This document shows positions 3,909-48,700 of a DNA stretch of 64,000 nt, one piece after another. This DNA comes from Cliona cf. orientalis. Lineage: Eukaryota > Porifera > Demospongiae > Clionaida > Clionaidae. Both the position numbers and the translations under genes were made by a program. Within the stretch, counting starts at the first letter, position 1, and every line of letters begins with the position of its first letter. The DNA lies in the NCBI GenBank assembly GCA_963930775.1, contig OZ005704.1, forward strand, positions 186,001-250,000, given 5' to 3'. The notes beneath the pieces are model-generated. The model was not told the origin of the DNA, searched no databases, and worked only from the letters and a program-made list of their open reading frames with translations.

Positions 3909-5007
3909 ATGAAATACCTTTTGGTACTCGCTATGGCAGTGCTGGTCACTGCAAAACCACTCGACGATGAATGGGAGCAATTCAAAAAGGTAATAAAACA
4001 TCATAGCAACTTGTCCGACAGACGTTATCAACTTGTTCATTTGCTTGTATTCTCTAGCAAAACATACATAATTTAGCAATTAATGATATCTTTCAACTAT
4101 CTTGCAGACATATGGCAAAAAATATGAGAGTGACAATGAAGAAATGCGACGAAACACCATCTGGCAGTCCAATAAGAAGTATATTGAAACACACAATGCC
4201 AATGCTGACAAATTCGGATTCACTCTGGGTATGAATGGATTTGGAGATCTTGAGAATCATGAGGTGGTCGCAATCTTCAACGGCTACAGACAGGAGATGA
4301 AGAATCTCTCAAATTCCAAGGCAGTGTTCCGGGCCAACCCCAACATCAAGATAGCTGCATCCACAGACTGGAGGGAGAAGGGAGCTGTTACTGGAGTGAA
4401 GAACCAAGGACAATGTGGTTCCTGCTGGTCATTCAGTGCAACTGGATCTCTTGAAGGACAACACTTCTTGAAGAAGGGAACGCTAGTCTCCCTCAGTGAG
4501 CAGAATCTTGTCGACTGCTCCACTAAATACGGTAACCACGGCTGTGAAGGAGGTCTCATGGACAATGCTTTCCGATACATCAAAGCAAACGGCGGGATCG
4601 ACACAGAGGAAAGCTACCCATACCAGGCTCACGATGAGCTCTGCCGATTCAAAGAGGCCGATGTTGGCGCAACCGACAGTAGTTACGTAGACATCCCCCA
4701 GGGGGATGAGGATGCCCTGACCCAGGCCATCGCCTCAGTGGGGCCCATCTCTGTCGCCATCGACGCCAGCAAGACTACCTTCCACTACTACAAGGAGGGT
4801 GTCTACAGCGACTCCCTCTGCTCTTCCACCAAGCTGGACCACGGTGTGCTGGCTGTTGGCTACGGTACTCAGGATGAGCAGGACTACTACATTGTAAAGA
4901 ACAGCTGGGGAGATGCCTGGGGATTGCAGGGATACATCCTCATGTCACGTAACAACGAGAACAACTGCGGTATCGCCACCCAAGCCAGCTACCCTGTGGT
5001 TGAATAG
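3909..5007 (+). CDS. Cathepsin L-like cysteine protease, array gene 1
   Basis: A secreted or lysosomal endopeptidase of papain family C1A, 326 residues. Exon 1 (3909-3989) encodes the signal peptide ([14 protein letters not shown]) and ends at the lysine pair of WEQFKK in phase 0. Exon 2 (4108-5007) carries the I29 inhibitory propeptide, with an ERFNIN-type helix ([20 protein letters not shown]) and GFGDLEN. The mature enzyme starts near residue 111, just before [10 protein letters not shown]. The oxyanion Gln and catalytic Cys are in [12 protein letters not shown] (C133), His is H272 in [11 protein letters not shown] and Asn is N292 in KNSWG, so it should be active. It is the most divergent copy around the active site at nucleotide level. 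An AATAAA lies at 5118-5123. It could also be called cathepsin L/V; the family is certain, one-to-one orthology is not. Confidence 0.95.
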
Positions 5008-5214
5008 TAGAATATCATGACATTGTATGGAGGGGGCTTAAGTTGAACGGAATAGTTTGCTGTGAATGTGATTTTTGTTTATATCTTAATATTGGCATGC
5101 ACAAGTTTGAATACCTAAATAAATTTGTTATGTAAATTTTGTAAGGTATGATAATTATCACTCAGCAGCAACAACAATCTATGTCTATACGCATGCGTAC
5201 GAAACGCGAATGTG

Positions 5215-5224
5215 GCGCATGCGC
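5215..5224. promoter_or_regulatory. GCGCATGCGC palindrome (NRF-1-like) before cathepsin gene 2
   Basis: This palindromic decamer matches the core of the NRF-1 (alpha-PAL) consensus and lies about 100 bp upstream of the start codon. Similar palindromes occur before cathepsin genes 3 and 6, two ependymin-related genes and CSE1L. Confidence 0.45.
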
Positions 5225-5275
5225 ATTGAACGTGCGGCTCGATTGAGGCGCGCACGATAAATATGATTTCAAACA

Positions 5276-5283
5276 TCATGTGA
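5276..5283 (+). promoter_or_regulatory. M-box-type E-box upstream of cathepsin L gene 2
   Basis: TCATGTGA, only 40 bp upstream of the start codon, so it overlaps the probable core promoter or 5' UTR. The 316-bp gap between genes 1 and 2 otherwise holds the gene 1 poly(A) signal and the NRF-1-like palindrome. Confidence 0.5.
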
Positions 5284-5323
5284 CGTTTGCAGATAATATT
5301 TTATTATCAAAAAACAGACAGAC

Positions 5324-6393
5324 ATGAAGCTTCTCTTGGTGCTTGCTCTAGCAGTGTTAGCCGCTGCGAGATCTTTCTCTGATGAGTGGGAGGACTTCAA
5401 AAAGGTGCATCATTTTAATAGCTATAAAGTGTCACATGCACTCATCAGTTGCCATGCAGACTGCAAAAAATAATGTTCATTCTCTCCTATGCTGTATAGA
5501 CCTATGACAAGAGCTATGAGAGTGATGAAGAGGAAACGAAGCGAAACACCATCTGGCAGGCCAACAAGGAATTTATCGAGACACACAATGCAAATGCAGA
5601 TGAGATTGGCTTTGAGCTGGGGATGAATGCATTTGGAGATTTGGAGAATCATGAAATTGTTGACCTTCTCAATGGCTACATGCAGGAGATGAAGAATAGC
5701 TCTAAGGATGTGTTCACCTACAACCCCAACATCGAGGCTGCAGCCACTGTGGACTGGAGGGAGAAGGGAGCTGTTACTGAAGTGAAGAACCAAGGACAAT
5801 GTGGCTCCTGCTGGTCATTCAGTGCAACTGGATCTCTCGAAGGACAACACTTCTTGAAAGAAGGGAAACTCGTCTCCCTCAGTGAGCAAAATCTGGTTGA
5901 CTGCTCCACTAAATACGGTAACCATGGTTGCGGAGGAGGTCTCATGGACAATGCTTTCCGCTACATCGAAGCCAATAATGGAATTGACACAGAGGAAAGC
6001 TACCCATACCAGGCTCATAACGAGGTCTGCAGGTTTAATCCCCAAACTATCGGTGCAACTGTCAGTGGCTACGTCGATATCCGACGTGATGATGAAAGGG
6101 CACTGACCCAGGCTATTCAGACCATTGGTCCCATATCGGTTGCCATTGATGCAAGTAAGTCAACCTTCCACTACTACAAGAGGGGTGTGTACTACGATCG
6201 AGAGTGTTCCTCCACCAAGCTGGACCACGGTGTGCTGGCCGTTGGCTACGGCACTGAGGAGTTCTTCAAGGAGTACTACATCGTGAAGAACAGCTGGGGG
6301 CCTAAGTGGGGAATGGAGGGGTATGTGCTGATGTCCCGTAACAGGGAGAACAACTGCGGCATCGCCACTCAAGCCAGCTACCCCAAAGTGTAG
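5324..6393 (+). CDS. Cathepsin L-like cysteine protease, array gene 2
   Basis: Papain-family endopeptidase of 324 residues. Exon 1 (5324-5404) gives the signal peptide [14 protein letters not shown]; exon 2 (5500-6393) gives the propeptide and enzyme. The exon 1 length (81 nt) and phase 0 join are identical in all six genes. The propeptide has [19 protein letters not shown] and AFGDLEN. The catalytic segments [19 protein letters not shown] and KNSWG are intact. The stretch coding for [20 protein letters not shown] and beyond is nearly identical at DNA level to genes 3, 4 and 6, silent sites included, which suggests gene conversion. A six-residue acidic/aromatic segment (EEFFKE) lies between the His and Asn blocks, where the copies vary. 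Confidence 0.95.
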
Positions 6394-6531
6394 TGTTAGT
6401 TTTGTCAAGCCACAGAACTGATAAAGTGACTTTGAGCTAGTGTACAAGTTGTTGTAGGTGTGGTATGTACAAAAATAAGATTAAACATGGGATGGCTTAT
6501 GATAAAGAGCCACACAAGATAAATAACGTAT

Positions 6532-6541
6532 GCGCATGCGC
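6532..6541. promoter_or_regulatory. GCGCATGCGC palindrome (NRF-1-like) before cathepsin gene 3
   Basis: Lies about 45 bp upstream of the start codon. This is the only cathepsin promoter of the array without the TCATGTGA octamer, so gene 3 may be driven differently from its siblings. Confidence 0.45.
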
Positions 6542-6583
6542 GTTACCGACACGTTTTGTTGCGCGACACCCACTGAATAAAAA

Positions 6584-7626
6584 ATGAAATTCTTACTGGT
6601 CCTTTGTTTAGCAGTGCTAGCCTCTGCTAGGCCTTATGATGATGAGTGGGAGCAATTCAAAAAGGTTAGCTGCTGTACTATCTTTGTGCATGTGTCAATG
6701 AGTAGCTAAAACTGAATCTTCCTCACCTGCAGACTTATGGCAAGAGTTATGAGAGTGATGAGGAAGAACAGAGGCGTATCACAATCTGGAAAGCTAATAA
6801 GAAATTTATTGAGACACATAACGCAAAAGCAGATGAGATTGGCTTTGAGCTGGGGATGAATGCACTCGGAGATTTGGAGAACCACGAAATTGTTGGACTT
6901 CTGAATGGTTATAAGCAGGAGATGAAAAACAGCTCCAAGGATGTGTTCACCTACAACCCCAATATCGAGGCTGCAGCCACTGTGGACTGGAGGGAGAAGG
7001 GAGCTGTTACTGAAGTGAAGAACCAAGGACAATGTGGCTCCTGCTGGTCATTCAGTGCAACTGGATCTCTCGAAGGACAACACTTCTTGAAGAAGGGAGA
7101 ACTCGTCTCTCTCAGTGAGCAAAATCTCATTGATTGTTCAACAATCTTTGGTAACCACGGCTGCCAGGGAGGGCTCATGGACAATGCTTTCAAGTATGTT
7201 GATGAAAACAAGGGGATCGATACTGAAAAGAGCTACCCTTACCAGGGACACAATGAGCTCTGCCGATTCAGGGCAAAGAACATTGGTGCGAACTGTAATG
7301 GTTACGTAGATATCCCCCGCAGAGATGAGACAGCACTGACACAGGCTATTCAAACCATTGGACCTATTTCTGCAGCCATTGATGCGAGTCGTGCCACCTT
7401 TCACTACTACAGGAAGGGTGTGTACTACGACCACCTCTGCTCCTCCACCAAGCTGGACCACGGTGTGCTGGCTGTTGGCTATGGCAGTGAGGAGGGACAA
7501 GAATACTACATCGTGAAAAACAGCTGGGGGCCTCAGTGGGGAATGGAGGGGTACGTGCTGATGTCCCGTAACAGGGAGAACAACTGCGGCATCGCCACTC
7601 AAGCCAGCTACCCCAAAGTTAAATGA
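6584..7626 (+). CDS. Cathepsin L-like cysteine protease, array gene 3
   Basis: Papain-family endopeptidase of 324 residues; exon 1 6584-6664 (signal peptide [14 protein letters not shown]), exon 2 6733-7626. The helix [20 protein letters not shown] replaces the usual RRNTIWQ, and AKADE replaces ANADK, so its propeptide is the most changed of the six. The catalytic Cys, His and Asn blocks are intact. The mature domain carries an extra cysteine in [11 protein letters not shown] that the other copies lack, and it uses [10 protein letters not shown] where they have (K/M/R)YGNHGC. The intron is only 68 bp. Confidence 0.95.
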
Positions 7627-7834
7627 AATTTATTGCTAGAAGTTTAATTGAGATGACCAACAGTTTGCTGTGTTTGCTTAACTCAGTATAATGTCATGTG
7701 TCCTAACATTTTGACTAATTATGTAACATGTCAACTTATAATTATTATTATGGCATGTTAATTACTGATTTGAGGTCAGTTTAGTGGATGAATTTAATTA
7801 TAATAATTATTGAGAAGAGTCATGTGTGGCCATA

Positions 7835-7850
7835 TCATGTGATGTATAAA
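7835..7850 (+). promoter_or_regulatory. E-box and TATA box of cathepsin L gene 4
   Basis: TCATGTGA at 7835-7842 is followed directly by TATAAA at 7845-7850. A second half-similar site, GTCATGTG, lies at 7819-7826. This is the clearest TATA-type promoter in the array, about 80 bp upstream of the start codon. Confidence 0.55.
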
Positions 7851-7928
7851 GCACTGCCTCCACAAGCTGCAGTCCTATTTTCTTGACGTCCTTGGAGTAG
7901 AGAAAGAGATTTTCGCTTGATCAGTGTC

Positions 7929-8966
7929 ATGAAGCTTTTCTTGGTGCTTGCTCTAGTGGCACTGGCCACTGCAAGACCTTTCACTGAAGAGTGGGAGGAC
8001 TTCAAAAAGGTATTAGAATTAATAATATTATTATTTCATGCAGACAGCTTCATTTTTTATCCAACACCCCTGCAGACTTTTGGTAAGACCTATGAAAATG
8101 ATGTGGAGGAATTACGACGAAATGCAATCTGGCAATCCAACAAGCAATACATCGAAGCTCATAATGCCAATGCTGACAAGTTTGGTTTTGAGCTTGGAAT
8201 GAATGCATTTGGAGATCTAGAGAGCCAGGAGGTGGTCGACCTTCTCAATGGCTACAAGCAGGAGATGAAGAACAGCTCCAAGGATGTGTTCACCTACAAC
8301 CCCAATATCGAGGCTGTAGCCACTGTGGACTGGAGGGAGAAGGGAGCTGTTACTGAAGTGAAGAACCAAGGACAATGTGGCTCCTGCTGGTCATTCAGTG
8401 CAACTGGATCTCTCGAAGGACAACACTTCTTGAAAGAAGGGGAACTCGTCTCTCTCAGTGAGCAAAATCTCATTGACTGCTCGACAATGTATGGTAACCA
8501 TGGCTGCAAAGGAGGTGCAATGCGTAATGCTTTCCGATACATTGAAGCAAACCGTGGAATCGATACTGAAAGGAGCTACCCATACCAGGCTCATGATGAG
8601 ATCTGCCGATTCAGACGTGCAGATGTTGGTGCAACTGATGAAGGTTATGTTCCTATCCTTCGTGATGATGAGAGAGCACTTACCCAGGCTGTTCAGACCG
8701 TTGGTCCCATCTCTGCTGCCATCGATGCCAGCAAGAAGACATTCCACCTTTACAAGAGAGGTGTGTACTACGACCCCCTCTGCTCCTCTACCAAGCTGGA
8801 CCACGGTGTGCTGGTGGTTGGCTACGGCACATTGGAAGATCAAGAATACTACATCGTGAAGAACAGCTGGGGACCTCTTTGGGGAGATGAGGGGTACGTG
8901 ATGATGTCCCGTAACAGGGAGAACAACTGCGGCATCGCCACTCAAACCAGCTACCCCAAAGTGTAG
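7929..8966 (+). CDS. Cathepsin L-like cysteine protease, array gene 4
   Basis: Papain-family endopeptidase of 323 residues when spliced; exon 1 7929-8009 (signal peptide [14 protein letters not shown]), exon 2 8076-8966. The start at 7929 matches its siblings; an upstream in-frame ATG at 7917 would add four residues before the hydrophobic core. The 66-bp intron is a multiple of three and has no in-frame stop, so an unspliced message would encode a continuous protein with 22 extra residues in the propeptide. The active-site blocks [19 protein letters not shown] and KNSWG are intact. HLYKRG replaces HYYKRG, and [11 protein letters not shown] replaces the usual [11 protein letters not shown] near the S2 region. 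Confidence 0.95.
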
Positions 8967-9102
8967 ACTATAGAGTTAATGAACTGAAGGAACACTAAAT
9001 TAAACCAAATGAACTATAATATTCTGTAGGAGTGTTGTATAACATTATATAATCTATAGATGAATTTCTTAAGGTACATCCCTCAAATGTGTGGTCGCTA
9101 TA

Positions 9103-9110
9103 TCATGTGA
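9103..9110 (+). promoter_or_regulatory. M-box-type E-box upstream of cathepsin L gene 5
   Basis: TCATGTGA, 80 bp upstream of the start codon, in the context TATATCATGTGATGATCATG. The surrounding bases resemble those at gene 4. Confidence 0.5.
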
Positions 9111-9189
9111 TGATCATGAATTTATCACTGCACTGCTAATTAATGTAGCATATCACTAGCCAGTCCTTGAAAGATCAATAGCAAGAAAA

Positions 9190-10220
9190 ATGAAGCTTCT
9201 CTTGGTGCTATCTCTAGCAGTGTTGGCCACTGCAAGACCTTTCACTGATGAGTGGGAGAACTTCAAAACGGTAAGAAAGTTGAGGTTGATGTTAGGCTAA
9301 GCTGTATGATAAAATTTTTTTCTTAGACTTATGGTAAGAGCTATAAAAGTGATGTGGAGGAAATGCGACGAAACACCATCTGGCAAGCAAACAAGAAGTA
9401 CATTGAAGCACACAATGCCAATGCTGATAAATTTGGATTCACTCTCAAGATGAACAAGTTTGGAGATCTGGAGAATCAAGAAATTGTATCGATTCTCAAT
9501 GGCTACAAGCAGGAAATGAAGAACAGCTCCAAAGATGTGTTCACCTACAATCCCAATCTTGAAGCCGCTCCAGCTGTGGACTGGAGAGATAAGGGAGCTG
9601 TTACTGAAGTGAAGAACCAAGGACAATGTGGCTCCTGCTGGTCATTCAGTGCAACTGGATCTCTTGAAGGACAACACTTCTTGAAGAAGGGAAAATTAGT
9701 CTCCCTCAGTGAGCAAAATCTGATTGACTGCTCCACTAAATACGGTAACCATGGCTGCATGGGAGGTCTCATGGACAATGCTTTCAAGTATATCGAAGCC
9801 AATAATGGAATTGACACAGAGGCAAGCTACCCATACCAGGCTCACAACGAGTTATGCCGATTCAACCCCCAAGATGTTGGTGCCACTCTTGATGGATATA
9901 CTGACATCCCACATGGAAATGAAAAGGCACTGACCCAGGCTATAGAGAGGATTGGACCCATATCAGTGGCCATCGATGCCAGCAAGTCGTCCTTCCACTA
10001 CTACCATGCTGGTGTGTACTATGAGCCACTCTGTTCCATCACTAGGCTGGACCACGGTGTGCTGGCTGTTGGCTACGACACCGACTTGGGCCAGGATTAC
10101 TACATTGTTAAGAACAGCTGGGGGCCTCAGTGGGGAATGCAGGGATACGTCCTCATGTCTCGCAACAGTGGAAATAACTGCGGCATCGCCACTCAAGCAA
10201 GCTACCCAAAAGTACTGTAA
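9190..10220 (+). CDS. Cathepsin L-like cysteine protease, array gene 5
   Basis: Papain-family endopeptidase of 324 residues; exon 1 9190-9270 (signal peptide [14 protein letters not shown]), exon 2 9327-10220. Exon 1 ends ENFKT where the others have FKK. The propeptide helix is [20 protein letters not shown] followed by KFGDLEN. The catalytic blocks are present, but the His block reads [15 protein letters not shown], with Asp replacing the usual Gly after GY. Together with [10 protein letters not shown] this marks gene 5, with gene 1, as outside the tight group of genes 2, 3, 4 and 6. It ends with a leucine (PKVL). Likely active. Confidence 0.95.
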
Positions 10221-10354
10221 ACTTGATATGAACTATATCAAAAATTAGGGTATGCAGTAAGTTATATTATTGTACGCGAATTACAGTATTGAGTTTATTA
10301 ACTTTAATGAAAAAATTATTAATAATATTTTATTACACGTATACCGAAAAATTA

Positions 10355-10366
10355 TGCGCATGCGCA
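10355..10366. promoter_or_regulatory. TGCGCATGCGCA palindrome (NRF-1-like) before cathepsin gene 6
   Basis: A perfect 12-bp palindrome about 220 bp upstream of gene 6, in the 363-bp gap after gene 5. The rest of that gap is AT-rich and then GC-rich (GCAGCGCGCGCACGC), with no other recognisable signal except the downstream E-box. Confidence 0.45.
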
Positions 10367-10470
10367 TTAATCAGCAGCAGCGCGCGCACGCATTTGATCG
10401 ACGATTACTTTCACCTTTCCTTCAACATGCACCACAAATATGCACGCATAGCTTAGCCATGTTTGTAGAA

Positions 10471-10478
10471 TCATGTGA
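10471..10478 (+). promoter_or_regulatory. M-box-type E-box upstream of cathepsin L gene 6
   Basis: TCATGTGA, 106 bp upstream of the start codon, in the context GAATCATGTGATTC, which extends to a longer imperfect palindrome. Confidence 0.5.
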
Positions 10479-10583
10479 TTCCCGGAGAGATACAGTCATA
10501 AAAATCAAGCTGCAGCCTGTCTTTTCTTCATTCTGCCAGATCTCCTCTGCAGTTCAAACCCCCAGCAACAGCAGCAGTCAGCC

Positions 10584-11663
10584 ATGAAGCTTCTCTTGGT
10601 ACTTGCTCTAGCAGTGTTGGCCACTGCAAGACCTTTCACTGACGAGTGGGAGGACTTCAAAAAGGTACAGTGAAAATTTACAATAATAATATTATGACAC
10701 TATTTAGCTAATAAAGATCACAGTTGCTTGGATACAAAATTCACGATTTTGCTTTCTCTCTCTCTCTCTCAGATGTATGGTAAGACCTATGAAAGTGATG
10801 AAGAGGAATTGCGACGAAACATCATCTGGCAGTCCAATAAGAAATACATCGACACACACAACGCAAATGCTGACAAGTTTGGTTTTGAGCTGGGGATGAA
10901 TGGATTTGGAGATTTGGAGAGTCATGAGGTGGTCGACCTTCTCAATGGCTACAACCAGGAGATGAAGAATAGCTCCAAGGATGTGTTCACCTACAACCCC
11001 AACATCGAGGCTGCAGCCACTGTGGACTGGAGGGAGAAGGGAGCTGTTACTGAAGTGAAGAACCAAGGACAATGTGGCTCCTGCTGGTCATTCAGCACAA
11101 CTGGATCTCTCGAAGGACAACACTTCTTGAAACAAGGAGAACTTGTCTCTCTCAGTGAGCAGAATCTCATTGATTGTTCAACCAGATACGGTAACCATGG
11201 CTGCAAAGGAGGTCTCATGGACAATGCTTTCCGATACATCAGAGCAAACGGTGGAATTGACACTGAAAGGAGTTACCCCTACCAGGCTCACGATGAGCTC
11301 TGCCGATTCAGAGAGGCCGATGTTGGTGCAACTCTCAGTGGCTATGTCGACATCCCTCGCAGGGATGAGAGAGCACTCACACAGGCCATTCAAACCATTG
11401 GCCCCATCTCTGTCGCCATCGACGCCAGCAAGAGGACATTCCACTACTACAAGAGAGGTGTGTACTACGACCCCCTCTGCTCCTCCACCAAGCTGGACCA
11501 CGGTGTGCTGGCTGTTGGCTATGGTACCATGGATGGCGAAGAATACTACATCGTGAAGAACAGCTGGGGACCAACCTGGGGAGATGAGGGATACGTGATG
11601 ATGTCCCGTAACAGGGAGAACAACTGCGGCATCGCCACTCAAGCCAGCTACCCCAGAGTGTAG
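10584..11663 (+). CDS. Cathepsin L-like cysteine protease, array gene 6
   Basis: Papain-family endopeptidase of 323 residues; exon 1 10584-10664 (signal peptide [14 protein letters not shown]), exon 2 10773-11663. The acceptor has a long CT tract. Exon 2 opens with [20 protein letters not shown]. Active-site blocks are intact; SFSTTGS replaces SFSATGS just after the catalytic Cys. It is close to gene 4 in the second half ([19 protein letters not shown]). This is the last gene of the array; about 400 bp later the FHA gene starts on the same strand. All six genes share orientation and the exon 1/exon 2 break, so they arose by tandem duplication. Confidence 0.95.
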
Positions 11664-21008: not shown

Positions 21009-24000
21009 ATGGCTCATTTTCCCGCTGCTGAAAACCCAGAAATCGACAAAAATCGATTCGCAGATCTGGGGCGTATGTGCCGAGAGGGTCAGCTAGAGCA
21101 ACTGAAGGAGGCTATCCAGTTCGATCGAGACATCCTCACCTACTTCAACATACGAACTCTGAAGGGAGTCACTCTACTGCACGAAGCCGTCGATGCCGAA
21201 CAACCAGACGTAGTGCAGCTGCTACTTCTGCACGGAGTCAGCCCCGATTTGAGAGCGCGGGGCGGCCTTACTCCGCTGCACGTAGCCGTGTCCAAGTGCT
21301 CAGTTGGCTGCGTCCGTGCACTGATCGAGAACGGGGCAGACATATCGATGAGAGACGAATCGGGCCAGGATGCCATCGCAAAGGCCGAGCTCCGCAGCAA
21401 GAAACGCGAGGCAGTCTTGAAACTGCTTCGTAGCAAAGGTGAGCGAGTAATAAAGAAGTTTCTTTTCATGCGGGGGGTGGGGCTTAGGCACGCATGCCAA
21501 GTCGGCTCAATTAGTGACTATTGACATCATTTTTCGCTATCCTTGCTCACAGAAATCGTTCTATTAGCGGAGAAGGGAGCTATAAAGGAGCTCGAAAAGA
21601 GATTGAAGCAGCAGACTCCTAAGCCTGAGATGAGGGATATCGAAGAAGCCATGCTAAGAGCCATTCGTAGCGGCAATGATGGATGTGTCCCCCTCCTGGT
21701 CGTGGCAGGTGCTCGACGCCTCGATTGTGCCCTCTACCTCGCCATCCAGCTGGAGAGAATCAAGGCCATAGCTATCCTCCTGCTCTGCAAAGCTACCATC
21801 AGTGGCGATACAGCTGCCATTCGCTCACTCCTCTCTGAGCCCCCAGAGTCAGCCAATGCCCCCTGGTACATGCCAAAAGTACACAAGGTTCTTTCTCAGG
21901 GCAATGTCAAAATGAGCTACCCAATAGCCGTCTCCATCTTTGAGAAGAAGTACGAGGCAACAAAGGAGCTTCTACTGAGGACAGACCTTGACATGGGACG
22001 GAAGCAGGTCGACTGGAGCAAGCTGAAGCTGACTATACTTCATTCTTCATGGATGTACTCCATCGCTCCATGGGTGGTGAGTCTGAAGCTTGTCAACAAT
22101 CATCTGAGGAAGCTACCTTCGGAGATGTCCAGTGCCACTCAGCTTAGGAGACTCGACCTTTCTCAGAATCTTCTCGAGACTGTAACTGCGGATCTGTTTG
22201 CCCTCCCAAACCTTGAATATCTCTCTCTTGGTCACAACAGGTTGAAGGAAGTTCCCGAGACAAGCAACTGGTCGGCTTCCCTTCTCTCCCTCGATCTCTC
22301 TGAGAATCTACTCAGCACCTTGCCTCAGGGCATACAGCATTCGTCGATCGAAATTCTCAACTTGAGCAGAAATCAGTTCACGTTGGTGCCAAAGTGCGTG
22401 TGTCGCATTCGCACTCTGACCTCACTGGATCTTAGCTACATGCCGATATCTTCCCTCCCGAAGGAGATGGAGCACCTGGATCATCTTGTCAATCTCAACG
22501 TCTCAAACGCCAACATCACCGACCTCCCTAACGGAGGGGGAGTGCTTCGAGGGGGGATCAGGGGAATATTCAGGGCCCGGGCCCGCTCCAACAAGCCATG
22601 CAACCACGTCAAATTGATGCTTCTCTGTCACTCAGATGTCGTCAAAACCGTCATGCTCTCGCGACTCAAACCCCACTTCAATTCCTCCCAGCAGGTGCAA
22701 AATTATCCCCTTCCTGAGATCGACGTGTTCCAGTGGTCCTTCAAACCTCTCTTCACTCGAAAGGTCTTTGTCTCCCCAAAGCTCTACTTTCACACTTGGC
22801 TCATCGGTAGCAACTACTCCTGCCGATCCATCTTTCCCTGCTTCTTCACACCGAGCGCCCTCTACGTCATCGTGTGGGACAGGACCACCACAGCCGACCT
22901 GAGGGAGCAGATCAAGCCGTACATCGACCTCCTCATTCGCTACGTTCCCTCGGCTAACATCTTGATCATAGCCGTCCTTCCGGAGCAGTATGAAGGGTGG
23001 ACTAGTGAGAGGCAAGCTGAAGGGCTGGCTGGAAGGCTGAACAACTTCTTCTCCAAGCCTAGCTACCAGTCTCTCTGTTACCACGGAGTCCTAATGGTGG
23101 TGGCAAATCCCAACGTCAAGGAGGGACAGAGTGATCTAAAGCAGCGACTGTACGATGCGGCTCAGCAGATGATCGTCAACGGCCAACAGATTATCGGTCG
23201 CCTAATTCCCGAGACCTACTTCTCCCTCATCCCCGTGCTGGAAAAGGAGCAGCAGACGTTCAGGTCAAAGTCCAAGCCTGGTGTGCTGGAGGAGAGCACT
23301 ATTTGGATGCTTTTTGACAAGGCCCTTGCCTCTGACCCTCCCGACAAGATGGAGCTTCCTGTTATGGTCGACTTCCTCAAGGAGGCCGGGCTTCTGCTGC
23401 ACTACGAAGATCCAAACGATCATCTCGATCGGTGCTACTTTACACGACCAATTTGGCTCTACAACACGTTGCTACGAGTTGTACGTCATGCCCTGGAGCA
23501 CCGTAGTCGTCTCTTCCTCACTCACAGCGAGCTCTGCTCGCTTGCAAACATCAGCTGGAGCAAAGACATCGCTCAAGCTCTCATCCGATTGATGATTCGC
23601 TACGCCATTGTCCTACCAATTCGCCACGATCAGTACCTCATCACTTGTCTTCTCCCCCACTCTCAGCCGCCAACCGACGTCCTCTACTGCGGCATGCTAA
23701 GGAGACAGTTTGCTCCGAAGATCCACAGTATACCAATCGATCTCTGGAGTAGATTGCTGTGTTCTATCATCTCCAACCTGTCTCGGATCACAGACGTGAG
23801 CAAGCTCAAGAAGGAGTCAAAGAGTAAGGGGAAGGAGAAGGGACATGACACAGACGATGAAACAGACGAGCATGGCCTGGCTACTACAACGGCCAAGAGA
23901 CAGCCACCTGAATATTTTGATCGAGCACACAGCGACCCAAATTTGCTTTCCAGGGTCAGTAAGATGGTGCAAGAAGGTAGTCAAAAATCGAAGGAGCCCC

Positions 24001-27000
24001 CCAACCTAACAACAGCCAAGGAGGCTGACAGAGAGGAAAGTACGGATTCTCAAGAAAAGACAAAAGGAGAAACTGGAGGCAAAGATGATCAAGCGGATGA
24101 TCAGATTAGAATGGAGGACATTTTGATTAATGTACAGCCAGCGAGTTTGCCAGAGGAGAGCGAGAGTGTGTTGGACCGTCACCCTCGAGGTTTTACTCGG
24201 CTCCAGCTGACTCAGTCTCTGCACACTGAGGACTCTTCTTGCGACAACACACCAGCGGACAGCCCCAACGGTAATGGCTCCAAGCCTTCTTCTCCTAAGA
24301 AAACACCAGGCCAGCTGCCACTGAATTCACCGGATCAGTCCGAGACAGAGAAGAAGGAGGAGGTAGCTTCAGCTGAAGTTGAAAAGGAGTCAGTGAAAGA
24401 GGGAGAGAAATCAAACGAAGAGCCAAAGGAGAGCAAATCTAGTGAGGCGCCACCATCAGGGCAACCTGGTGCAGCTGCTGAAAGCAGAATCCAGAAAGGA
24501 ATCAAAGAAGATTCACCAATTTCACCAACAGCAGGGGATCAGAGGCTGACGTCCAGAATTTTGCGACTGACTTCACCCGTGAAACACTTCAGTCGGGATA
24601 GATCGGGCAGTCCTGGATCTTCTGACTCCACCCACACCCCACCCACTGGCAGCGCACCAGTCAATGGACAGCTGCAAGCTAGCATTCCTCGGCATTCGTC
24701 AGAGGGGTCTAGGCTTCACAGAAATGTCAGTGCTCCGTCCAAGAAGAGAGATCCATCCAGACGTTCACTGTACGCCAAACCAGCTGCCATCGACAAAGGT
24801 GTGGAGATATGGGAGTCGGGCATGATCTATAACCACAAAGGTATAAAGTTCAGCATCTTTCCTTGTATTTCAGAAGTCTCGACGGTGGAGGAGAGAGGAA
24901 TCGAAATCTGCTGCACTCGAGACAACTATGGCTACACCATCATGGCTCGACTGTGTTGGCTGGTTCAGAGAAACCTCGAGGAACGATTTCCCAACCTCTT
25001 TTCAACGGAAACACCTCTTCAGAAACACGAGCTCACGCAGATAGCCATTTGTCCCACCTGCCTCGAAAAAAACGAGAGAAACCCTTCCTGCTTCTTGATC
25101 GAGGCATGTGTTCACGCCCTACAGATCAAGGGTGAACACAATTGTAGGTACCACCCTGAAGCTATCCCGCTACGAGACCTCGTCCCCGACTATCTCCTGC
25201 TCGATTTCCCCTCTCACCTCCGTCTCACAAAGACAATGTTCGAGTACAACGAAGCCAAGCCTCTTCACCGAGGCAGACAGACAGTTCTCCACAATGGTCA
25301 CTTCAACGGGAAGGAGGTAGCCATCAAGATGTATTATCAACTGGATAGTAGATCCATCACTCTCCCTCTCTCTTGTGTGAGAAGAGAAACAGACATGCTC
25401 AGCTCACTCAATCACCCGAATATCGTCAAGACCTTTGGCTTTTGTCTCGATCCTCCCTGCGTGCTCGTGGAGAAGGCTTCTCTTGGAAATCTCTACCAGA
25501 AGCTGATGGACACTGAGGTGAAGATCAGCAGAACTGTTCGGTTTCACATCGGCTGTCAAGTTGCCTCCGCCCTTAGTTATCTCCATCAACGTGATATCAT
25601 CTATCGTACACTAAAGGCAAGCTCCATTCTGCTATGGTCTCTGGATTTCAAGTGTGAAGCCAGCGTTAAGTTGGCTAACTTTGAGCGAGCGGCCTACCAG
25701 TCCCCAAGTGGACTAATGAGCAAGACAACATTCTCCTCTTACCCCGCACCAGAGATGCTGAGGTACTCCTTCAGAGAAGAGTACACAGAGAAAGTGGATA
25801 TCTACTCATTTGGCATCCTCCTCTACGAGCTAGTGACAAGATGGCAGCCCTATGGAGGAACAAGCAATGGCGCTCACTCTCAGAAACCAAAGCTATCCGG
25901 CGTGGTAACCACTAGCTATAGCACCATAGTGAAACTTATGGAGGAGTGCTGGCAGGAAGAGTCCCTGTCCCGCCCCTCAGCCGATGACCTCCTTCTGCAG
26001 CTGTCCCAGCCCTCCTTCCAATGCCACATTGCTTCTCAGGTGCTCCGTGATTGTGTCTCTGTGCGTGGATGCTGTTTTGTGCCCTCAGTCAGACAGATTT
26101 GGGTCTATGGAGAGTATAATAAGACTAGCCTGTGTGGTGATGGAGAGATCTCTGAAGGAACACAAGTGTTCATTCTCAATGCTGAAAATTTGACCGTACA
26201 GGGAAGCTTGGAGCTACGAGAGAGAGCCAGCGCCATTTTCACTGTCGACAACAAGGTGTGGATTGGAATGACAGAGCTGTGCGTCCATGCTTACGACACC
26301 ACAACATTCCGATTCACCGATCGATTCCATCTTGACGATTCAGCTACCATCATTGCCGACAACGACTGCTACGTGTTCGTCGGTCAGGCCAATGGTCAAC
26401 TCAAGTGCTACTCCAAGCTGCAGCTGCAGCGAGGAGACTGTCAACCAGTCGTCGTAGAGATAGGAGACAAGGCCATCATCGCTATGGTTACGGTTGGTGA
26501 CATCATCTGGTTGGGTTGCGGGAACGAGCTTGTGATTCTGAGTGCTGAGGACGAAGTAACAATGGAACGAAGAGCACAGGTGTGTGATTCATCGGACCAG
26601 GTATACGGCATGGCAGTCTCCCACGACACAAACACTGTGTGGTGCCTTGGCCGTAACTCTCATAGTATCACATCGTGGGACATTCACACCACGGAGAAGA
26701 AGAGTACGATAGACCTCTCCGAGTACCTGAAGTGGATCTGCTGTGAGTTGAACTATGACCCCAGCTTCGTAAGGATGGTCTCGATCGAGTGCGTCAGTGA
26801 CACTCTGTGGGTGGGGCTGTCGTATGGAGTGATTCTGATCCTAACGGACGCCGAACAGCCGGAGAAGATTATCCACTTCAAGGCTCACAAGCAGGCCACG
26901 AAGTGTCTCCTCAAGATTCCCCATAGCAACGATCTCCATCAGCACCACGATCATCCCGTGATTCTTAGCGGAGGGTTCGGGGAAGTATCCTCTCTCTCCA

Positions 27001-27104
27001 GCATGGCGTCCGAACAGAACGGTGTGGTTATGCTGTGGCATGCGTTCACTGCAAATGAATTTAGCACAGTCTCTAAGAGGCACAATAACTATGTCATGCA
27101 CTAG
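21009..27104 (+). CDS. LRRK-like Roco protein with degenerate GTPase and kinase sites
   Basis: A protein of 1993 residues; exon 1 21009-21438, exon 2 21553-27104, one 5.5-kb exon. Domains in order: ankyrin repeats about 45-140 (TLLHEAVDAEQPDVVQLLL, TPLHVAVSK), leucine-rich repeats about 315-480, Roc about 495-690, COR about 690-880, a disordered acidic Ser/Pro linker about 890-1220, a protein-kinase fold about 1375-1640, and a WD40-like C-terminus. Layout and length fit LRRK1 (about 2015 residues in human). The Roc P-loop is replaced (LLCHSDVVKTV at 500-510, no GxxxxGK), and the DxxG and NKxD-type motifs are not recognisable. In the kinase, VAIK (K1402), the helix-C Glu, PAPE and DIYSFG remain, but HRD is YRTLK (T1496) and DFG is ANFE (N1519), and the glycine loop is lost. 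It is predicted to be a scaffold-type pseudokinase and pseudo-GTPase. Confidence 0.92.
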
Positions 27105-27379: not shown

Positions 27380-31957
<4,578 letters not shown>

Positions 31958-45707: not shown

Positions 45708-48700
45708 CTAGAGCAGTGTGGATATGTTGGCCAGTTGCATATAGCTTTGCAGGAATTGTGTTGCATCGTTGCTCAGGCCTGACTGTATCATGCCTTGCAG
45801 CTGGCCTGGGTGTCGCGAGGAAAGCTTGTGGAGACTGTGGGCAAGGTGAGCCTTAGCATTGCTCACCATCTCCCCAAACGGATCGTGCTCCTTCGTGCCG
45901 GCAAAGATCAGCTGGGAGAAGGCCGTCTGATAGCCTGGGGTGTCGTCTACCTCGATAAAGTGCTCGTCGTCTGGCAAGCTGTCGTCCTCTGGGAGCTCAA
46001 AAAGGCTAATGAGCGCTTGGAGTAGGGGCACCCAAAGCTTGATGTAAGGCTCGGCCAACATGGCTGGGGTCTCCGTCAGGATTTTTGTGATTCCAATGGC
46101 ACAGATTTTTCTCTCTGTCGGACCACTGACTTTTTGAACGTCAGTGATGAATACTTTCTCCAATACCAGTTGGAAGAGCTTTGGTTGAATGGAATCGATG
46201 ACTTCCACCAAAGCCGAGCCACCAAACTTGCCAGCAAAGAGGGAGAAAAAGACAAGGAGACCTTTGACGTACTTTGTCGTTCTGCTGCTCTGCAGTCGCT
46301 GGAAGAGAAGGATAAAGATATTCTTGAGCTGGGGAGAGAGAACTGCTGAGTCGACGTTTTCAATCAGGCTATTGATGAGATAGAATCCTTCGTGGTCGTT
46401 GGATTTGGATGCAATTAGCTTCTGAAAAACACCCAGCAAAGCACCTAACTTGTCACCCTTGGTGATATCAGCCGGTGACTTCTCAGTAAACGCCTGGAGC
46501 AGCCTAACAAGTGCGGGAATGTTGCCAGTACGCTCCCAGAGTGCCGGAACGAGAAGGTGGGGATAGATATTTATGTACGCTTCTGGAATGGGGGGAGGGC
46601 GGAGCTCCAGGAGTAGGGACAATATCTGAAAAGCATAAGGTAGAAATTCACTCACATCACGAACCAGAATACTCATGATAATTGGAAAGAGAGCCGTTTC
46701 GAACTTCTCGGTAGACAGTGGTGCCACGCGACACGAAAATCGGATCACGCAGCAAATCGATTCAAACAGGTAGTGGTTGAAGTGTGGCTTTCTAGGATTC
46801 TGGCTAACGACATTCAATTTGGCTGCCAGCTGCTCAAGCAATGTCTCGGAGAATTGAGCCATCTTTTCCTTCATGGTTGACATCGATCGAAGGATGGCCT
46901 TCATCACATACTCATTCTCCTCAGAGCCGGGCATCTTTAGAGCATTAAAGAGATTGGTTAGAACGTTGGCTAGGTGAGGCTCGAGGTCGGTGGCTGTTAT
47001 CACGGCCTGACCATCACTCCGTCTCAACATGAGAAGCTTCTCTAGGCAGTGAGCAGCGTACGTGTGCACTACAGCGCTGGGGGCAGCCAGGTGGGAGGTG
47101 AGGAGAGGGAGCGTGGGGACCAAAGTATCTCGGGGTAGAACGCTGCGAAATGTGGTGAGATAGCGGATCGAGTCGGCTCTCAGGACAGGTTGCTTGGCTA
47201 GGTTGGGGTTCTGAAGCTCTGGCAAGCACTGCGAGGCAAATATATCGTTGACGTCAACCAAATCACTTGTCTTCGTGGTGCCATCTTTCGCCGTTTTCGA
47301 TTTGGCAGCAATTGCAGCAATCAAGAAAAGAGCTGTATCTTTACATTTCCAATTCTCGGTCGTATCCTGAGCGTACTGCTGTAGAAGAGTAGTGATATAA
47401 CCACTGAAGATTGCTGTCACAGGGCCTTCAAAATGTCGACAAAGACTTCGCACCAGGCTACAGGCCGAGTGCCGTCTCGTACCCACGTCAGATCCCTCAA
47501 GATCCCGGCGCAGGTACTCCTCCGGATTATCTTCAAACAGCTCCTCGTCCGCTTCACGGATTACCATATTTGGAACGATGACCTTCTCGCAAATCTCCTT
47601 CAGCGTAGTCTCGTTGGCAAAGAGGTCTTTGTAGACGGGTCGCTCTGATACAGACGCCAGAAACTCCAACGCATTACTGACAAGGTGATCGTGCTTCGGC
47701 TTGATATCCGTACTGATCAGAAGAGTCCAGATCGACTCAACGAACGCAGGGATGTAGTCAGAAAAATCGTCGTCATATTTCTGTGCAAACATGCTTGCAA
47801 CTTCGCAGATCTGTGTCTTGACCTTCTCCAGATGCCCCGCCTCCTCATCATCGTCTGTCTCGAGGAGCTGGTTGTCGGTGCCAAGAAGAGCTAAAAAGTG
47901 AGTCATCCATCGCTTGAGGTTGTCGTCGGCAAAGTGGTCAGGCATCTCCTGGGAGGTGAGGTTGTAGAAGACCTTGCAGATTTGGAGGAGGGAGCTGAAC
48001 AAAACCTAGAAATGAGAAACATACATGTATACCCAGAGATAAAAAACCACAGAAATGTCTGAAAAACAGCAGGTGAATATCTAAGTTGATAGTGCCTGTA
48101 TACATGTATATGTACACATATAAGTTGGTAGCGATCACAGTCACCATATGCACTGGTCACATACATCAGTGTACATGTATGAGACACCCATCATGTTCAC
48201 ACACTACATGTGTACATTAGTCTTTGCGATGGGAATTAACTTGATTGAAATGGTTAAATGATACACTGTTACATGGAATTGAATATCAAAATCACGCAAA
48301 TCTGATGTTGGGACACTTCCCTCAATGGAGGACAGCGTAAACACAATTATCTATTATTTTTCTGCTAAAATAAGCAGTAGATACTTTCCAAGTTAGGCCT
48401 TCGGGGGCTAAGCCGCTTGTAGAAACAAAAATTTATGCTCCTGTGGTGTAATAGAAATCACTGGAGGATAATGACTCCCGTCCGGCGGCCAGATGCAGGG
48501 AATACCCACAGTGGAGCAAAAGTTCGCAAAAGGTCTACTATAGCTACAATGGAAAATGGAGCAACTGAAACAAAAACAAATATTTTGCTGATTTAGTTAA
48601 TGAAAGATAAACTTTCAAAAATGTCCCTTCTTGAATAAAGAAACACGCACAGTCATAGTGACACCGGCCGAGCATGATAGTTTAGGCTTACTCTGGCGTG

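Follow-up and report, generated by a model that had tools for sequence, protein, structure and literature searches.

A LRRK-like Roco protein of the sponge Cliona cf. orientalis with degenerate GTPase and kinase centres, probably maintained as a dual pseudoenzyme

A LRRK-like gene was analyzed in a stretch of 64,000 nucleotides of the sponge Cliona cf. orientalis (hereafter the window), which corresponds to positions 186001-250000 of contig OZ005704.1 (C16). The gene lies at 21009-27104 of the window, on the plus strand, and encodes a Roco protein that has lost key residues of both its GTPase (Roc) and its kinase centre. Six loci of the genome share these losses, and both domains are under purifying selection. 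The protein is probably a maintained dual pseudoenzyme, that is, a pseudoGTPase joined to a pseudokinase, with the likely role of a scaffold or an allosteric partner. All coordinates below refer to the window unless a contig is given, and all features of the gene are on the plus strand.

The degenerate Roc (Ras-like) domain was placed at 22587-23144, with boundaries of our own, by alignment to the Roc domains of LRRK1 and LRRK2 and by a Pfam match of 17.9 bits, which is below the cut-off of 27. Its motifs were located by pairwise alignment to LRRK1 and LRRK2 and by alignment to relatives with intact motifs. In detail, the P-loop GxxxxGK[ST] has become CHSDVVKT (22626-22649), with both Gly gone and the Lys-Thr pair retained. 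The G3 motif WDxGG is replaced by WLIGS (within TWLIGS, 22794-22811), where the Asp is changed to Leu and one Gly is retained. The original prediction, made from the letters of the window, had reported the loss of the P-loop and of the DxxG motif, and both sets of alignments bear it out. The change of G4, from the THLD of intact relatives to VLPE (within AVLPEQ, 22971-22988), is additional to it. Judged by sequence, the protein lacks the G1, G3 and G4 expected of a GTP-binding Roc, and the usual GTP binding or hydrolysis of this domain would be lost.

The pseudokinase domain (25227-26018, boundaries again our own) is recognized by Pfam (PK_Tyr_Ser-Thr, 3.1e-31) and by alignment to the LRRK1 kinase. 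Its catalytic loop, YRTLKASS (25602-25625), has YRT in place of HRD, the Asp being replaced by Thr, and Ser in place of the Asn of HRDxxxxN. The former DFG reads NFE (within KLANFER, 25668-25688), with Asn for the Asp and Glu for the Gly. The two lost Asp had been predicted as T1496 and N1519, and they were found at exactly these residues of the joined protein; the losses of the Asn and of the DFG Gly were not part of that prediction. The Gly-loop GxGxxG is changed to HRGRQT, with the first and third Gly gone. The VAIK Lys (region 25317-25340), the helix-C Glu, the APE Glu and the Asp of DxxxFG (DIYSFG) are retained, as had been stated, and so is the helix-I Arg. The domain, in which the HRD Asp, the Asn and the DFG Asp are all missing from a kinase fold, therefore has the predicted character of a pseudokinase and not of an active kinase, and the usual phosphate transfer would be lost.

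Among the results that would speak against it, the original prediction had named canonical motifs a few residues away from the assigned sites. A pattern search for GxxxxGK[ST], [HYF][RC]D, D[FYL]G and [NT][KH]xD found none in the protein of exon 2, and the sole D[FYL]G of the full protein is a DLG at residue 19, within exon 1. A displacement of the motifs by few residues is ruled out by this search and by the alignments.

The same losses recur in a family of six loci. The genome (217 Mb, 149 contigs) was searched with the COR-B-kinase-WD40 part, and five paralogues were found on contig C2: A (10.946 Mb) at 90%, B (10.965 Mb) at 88%, C (10.974 Mb) at 85%, D (10.978 Mb) at 81%, and E (4.31 Mb), which is fragmented, matches at 64-71% by piece and contains internal stops. 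The search with the Roc-COR part returned the same six loci, with the five besides the window gene at 93, 92, 91, 72, and 67%. All six copies lack both P-loop Gly, the G3 Asp, the G4 Asp, the HRD Asp, the catalytic-loop Asn and the DFG Asp. The HRD Asp is replaced by Thr and the G3 Asp by Leu in every copy. Other replacements vary: the site of the DFG Asp is occupied by N, G, N, H, N, and N, and copy E, the broken one, has Q for the P-loop Lys. Drift of this kind would be expected once the chemistry had become dispensable.

A codon model was fitted to each segment of exon 2 using the window copy and paralogues A-D, or the window copy, A and B for the loop of COR-B; the one-ratio likelihoods of this custom model were within 0.1 of those of IQ-TREE. 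The ratio of nonsynonymous to synonymous rates (dN/dS, omega) was 0.21 for the leucine-rich repeats (LRR), 0.19 for Roc, 0.23 for COR-A, 0.22 for COR-B, 0.21 for the kinase and 0.23 for WD40. Neutrality (omega = 1) was rejected in all six folded segments, with twice the log-likelihood difference (2dlnL) ranging from 49.7 to 214.4 (Roc, 96.1 over 174 codons; kinase, 132.0 over 263 codons). The dN/dS check proposed along with the original prediction thus gave purifying selection on Roc and kinase, and the statement that the fold is selected and catalysis is not agrees with the double loss in six loci combined with these rejections. On the branch leading to the window copy, omega was even lower (LRR 0.039, Roc 0.028, COR-A 0.015, COR-B 0.022, kinase 0.014, WD40 0.074), and this branch was tighter than the rest in Roc (p 0.011) and kinase (p 5.2e-6). 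Since this applies to every folded segment, constraint is strongest on the window copy and more relaxed on the copies of C2. In the loop (omega 0.64 over 326 codons, 2dlnL 4.1), the window branch was not significantly tighter (0.42 vs 0.87, p 0.1).

These values bear on two other explanations. The first is a family of decaying pseudogenes, in which the need for the gene has ceased, hence the loss of the enzyme, and its copies persist through duplication. Copy E, which seems to be broken, with the frame split into two overlapping reading frames and stops in its matches (an assembly error is possible), would fit this explanation, and so would the looser evolution of the C2 copies, with a pairwise dN/dS of 0.19-0.81 by segment between A and B. 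On the contrary, the window copy and the four other copies have open frames of 1582-1866 amino acids, neutrality is rejected throughout the folded segments, and the intron junction and its phase, compared by eye, are the same in the window gene and in the open paralogues A-D. A decaying family is thus very improbable, and pseudogene status of the window copy itself is ruled out by its 1993 open codons and the rejection of neutrality in six of the six segments. In the second explanation, Roc and kinase are redundant passengers held by folding stability, and selection acts on the ankyrin (ANK), LRR and WD40 arms. The similar omega of all folded segments (0.19-0.23) could be produced by folding alone; however, the passenger domains would be expected to be less constrained than the arms, which is not the case, and the loop of the same chain is far looser. 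This explanation is considered improbable.

The residues that remain raise the question of a cryptic enzyme, which would use other residues or chemistry, as in some atypical kinases, or hold a nucleotide as a structural cofactor. The P-loop Lys-Thr is retained in four of the six copies, the VAIK Lys and the helix-C Glu in five and the helix-I Arg in all, and the kinase omega of the window branch is very low. Against it, the base, both metal-binding residues and two Gly of the Gly-loop are lost together, as are G1, G3 and G4, and the drift of the DFG Asp site among the copies is unlike that of a repurposed catalytic residue. A cryptic enzyme of this kind appears unlikely, and a dual pseudoenzyme remains the preferred explanation.

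Several points nevertheless weigh against a dual pseudoenzyme. Weak or metal-free nucleotide binding is possible, because the P-loop Lys-Thr, VAIK Lys and helix-C Glu are mostly retained, and activity persists in some members of the pseudokinase and pseudoGTPase classes (table in PMC5593906). The looseness of the C2 copies, described above, also belongs here. The AlphaFold models are poor, with a mean predicted local distance difference test score (pLDDT) of 58.7 and 58.3; residues 1-95 of the Roc-COR model, where the P-loop and G3 are located, are almost all below 50. The pockets cannot be judged from models of such low mean pLDDT, and the retention of the folds rests mainly on sequence. The Ras-like fold of Roc, in particular, is suggested by the Pfam match below cut-off, the LRRK alignment and the low-confidence model. 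A second fold search was dominated by propellers and is not informative on the kinase fold (the row of LRRK2 8tze covers 631 residues with a root-mean-square deviation of 10.2). Finally, the single-tree estimates of omega are approximate, as the paralogues are mosaics, probably by gene conversion. Identity to copy A at 4-fold sites varies along the gene between 0.27 and 0.95 and the trees of the segments disagree, so that gene conversion between chromosomes is the likely source of the mosaic. Silent-site similarity to the C2 copies shifts abruptly along 21553-27104: the middle of the gene was near-identical to A and B and both ends were diverged.

The gene consists of two exons (21009-21438 and 21553-27104), which join to a protein of 1993 amino acids without stops. 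The reading frame across 21009-27104 is interrupted by a stop at 21522-21524, with open stretches of the same frame at 21009-21524 and 21543-27104; this stop is removed by a GT-AG intron of 114 bases (21439-21552). Exon 1 carries the start codon and ankyrin repeats (Pfam Ank_2, 2.7e-25), and its counterpart adjoins the four open paralogues with 69-70% nucleotide identity, their intron sequence being unlike that of the window gene. As the intron junction is common to the paralogues, a retrocopy origin is ruled out. Exon 2 extends from the LRR to WD40 and includes the stop codon. The leucine-rich repeats (22077-22535) correspond to stretches of Pfam LRR_8 (E 1.7e-14) and LRR_14, and the WD40 propeller (26019-27101) to Beta-prop_LRRK2 (1.9e-21). 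COR-A (23145-23780, boundaries our own) was placed by alignment to LRRK1 and LRRK2, and the part of COR-B after the loop (24807-25199), starting with WxxG, by alignment to LRRK1.

By Pfam and by these alignments the domain order is ANK-LRR-Roc-COR-kinase-WD40, as in LRRK-type Roco proteins. The Roc and COR assignment rests on the alignment to LRRK1 and LRRK2, since COR-B, like Roc, scores below the cut-off of 27 (14.2 bits) and COR-A has no Pfam match in the window copy at E up to 0.1. The COR-A score of paralogue A, 35.1 bits, falls just short of the cut-off (35.3). For comparison, the scores of an intact-motif relative (O_C16_401) are Roc 79.9, COR-A 70.1 and COR-B 29 bits. The closest solved structure is human LRRK1 (8e04, E 9.6e-82), with LRRK2 at best 5.6e-65. 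A complete LRRK1 layout had been predicted; the domain order stands, and the name is better given as LRRK-like, on the LRRK1 side.

COR-B is interrupted by a loop of 349 amino acids (23760-24806) between the landmarks LWSRLL and WxxG. Its length is 351 in A, 344 in B, 162 in C, 90 in D and 48 in E, against about 52 amino acids between the same landmarks in human LRRK1. According to one LRRK study, the kinase-inhibiting loop of LRRK1 sits at this position, and in cnidarian LRRK4 the COR-B loop exceeds that of other LRRKs by more than 200 residues (PMC10643122). The window protein thus has a very long loop in common with the LRRK4 clade, the comparison being based on the description of the loop in that text. 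Such a loop is absent from D and E, and its length alone is weak evidence for LRRK4 membership.

The loop of the window copy includes two RxxSxP motifs, RAHSDP (23922-23939) and RNVSAP (24720-24737), which we take to be 14-3-3-like, as a speculative lead. Two were seen where 0.25 were expected, and 2.4% of 5000 shuffles reach two, for a motif picked after looking. Copy A lacks one of them, and the loops of C, D and E contain neither. Since the motif was chosen post hoc and is not conserved among the copies, it is treated as a lead only.

The human references of the trees were LRRK1 and, in the Roc-COR tree, LRRK2, and long branches blur the exact positions. Of the 26 Roc-COR matches, 17 entered the alignment (A1). 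In the Roc-COR tree, the six-locus family forms its own long-stemmed clade. A split with support 95/90 separates it, human LRRK1 and a further gene, L030, from human LRRK2 and the ten remaining rows, and the sequences thus lean to a position on the LRRK1 side. Read without a midpoint root, this tree places the family next to L030 with weak support (83/31), where long branches meet. In the COR-B-kinase tree, which was made without LRRK2, L030 groups with human LRRK1 (89/75) and the family is outside that group.

L030 (1-4917; C17:6733358-6738274) is a second, more distant LRRK-like gene in which both centres are degenerate; its best solved match is LRRK1 (E 1.1e-55). It has lost the second P-loop Gly (at a site of ambiguous alignment), with no GK where the P-loop normally has it, and the G3 and G4 motifs, its HRD Asp is changed to N (HRN) and its DFG Asp to G (AGF). 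Either one double loss shared by the family and L030 or two separate losses are possible. The C-terminal tail of L030 is long, rich in tyrosine and proline, with repeats of the YDVP/YSVP type, and from its sequence looks like a docking tail.

The same genome also encodes relatives whose motifs are intact, one of them at C16:398655-402587. From 58 kinase-WD40 matches, the six-locus family, 13 distant LRRK-like relatives and L030 were used, and 37 kinase-only matches were omitted. The 13 relatives, aligned over both domains, show 26-27% identity in the kinase-WD40 part. In three of them (O_C16_401, O_C16_918, and O_C16_5516) the P-loop, G3, HRD Asp, Asn and DFG are all intact, with Tyr in place of the HRD His. 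The proposed search for an active paralogue was thus answered in part: relatives with the motifs of both centres are present, but at only about 26% identity. The HRD Asp is lost in five of the 13 and the DFG Asp in one, whereas the P-loop is intact in ten, the other three being sequences that end short as extracted. Among the readable rows, loss of the P-loop is seen only in the six-locus family and L030.

The Roco expansion of this genome comprises at least 150 matches to COR-A (PF16095), all of those scored from 290 candidates; the window copy is absent from these matches and four of its paralogues are present. Several members lack the kinase HRD Asp only, and by their sequences kinase erosion is frequent in the expansion. 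The expansion is very large, with members on contigs C2, C7, C14, C16 and others, and a tandem cluster with long open frames was observed on C16 at 0.87-0.95 Mb.

For the window protein, the most likely action would be that of a non-catalytic scaffold, or of an allosteric or competing partner of the intact-motif Roco kinases of the same genome, by analogy with known pseudokinases that act on active relatives. Roc-COR may still provide dimerisation and architecture, the kinase fold may offer a surface for docking or allostery, the ANK, LRR and WD40 arms may bind partners, and the loop of 349 amino acids may be a flexible, perhaps regulated segment. In a broader and doubtful extension, "pseudo-LRRK" scaffolds would have given up GTPase and kinase once or perhaps twice (the six-locus family and L030) and become non-catalytic partners of the expanded Roco kinases. 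If true, the LRRK architecture would have a conserved function independent of both catalytic activities.

Human LRRK1 (8e04, 8e05, and 8fac) has the same domain order and retains GPPRQGKS, WDIGG, THLD, the Asp of FCDLK and DYG, which the window protein lost. The pseudokinases TRIB1, HER3, SgK269 and ULK4 (named in PMC8141879) also have a kinase fold that lacks key catalytic residues; unlike them, the pseudokinase of the window sits in a Roco protein next to a pseudoGTPase. The pseudoGTPases of p190RhoGAP are likewise parts of a large protein and have a Ras-like fold whose G motifs are degraded, but they are not Roc domains, and no fused pseudokinase was noticed in the available portion of the source (PMC5593906). 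In LRRK2, the engineered mutants D2017A, K1906M and A1904F are kinase dead, and A1904F keeps behaviour linked to conformation, with some filament formation (PMC6660771). These are man-made and concern the kinase only, whereas the window gene is natural and its GTPase motifs are lost too. Among the literature matches listed, judged by title or the start of the abstract and with subscription papers mostly outside the search, no report of a Roco protein dead at both centres was found.

In both LRRK1 and LRRK2 a GTPase is coupled to a kinase, and the structural and catalytic shares of their biology are an open question. The window protein amounts to an independent evolutionary experiment on this question. 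Because a natural LRRK chain lost the residues of both centres and yet its Roc and kinase stayed under strong purifying selection, its remaining role should be free of ordinary catalysis, and the surfaces conserved in it are candidate non-catalytic interfaces of the LRRK family.

Concerning the surroundings of the gene, a block duplication with neighbours is unsupported: DNA similarity between the window and the C2 pieces fetched (E 1e-10) spans the gene (21175-27104), and the sole match outside it is one of 93 bases at 31505-31596. By eye, each open C2 paralogue (L046-L049, C2:10.94-10.99 Mb) is preceded by its own protein-kinase-like frame, and these frames end in a common LNNIMS.LNNAINPERKTKV motif; for the frame from L047, tblastn gave no match in the window. 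In the window itself, six cysteine protease frames of the papain family (cathepsin-like) lie in tandem at 4102-11663. A frame at 28414-28815 runs from the C-terminal half of a Ras straight into a Ras/Roc-like N-terminal half, and may be a read across tandem Ras genes. A coding frame of CSE1/CAS (exportin-2) of 764 amino acids, a conserved landmark, lies on the minus strand at 45708-48002.
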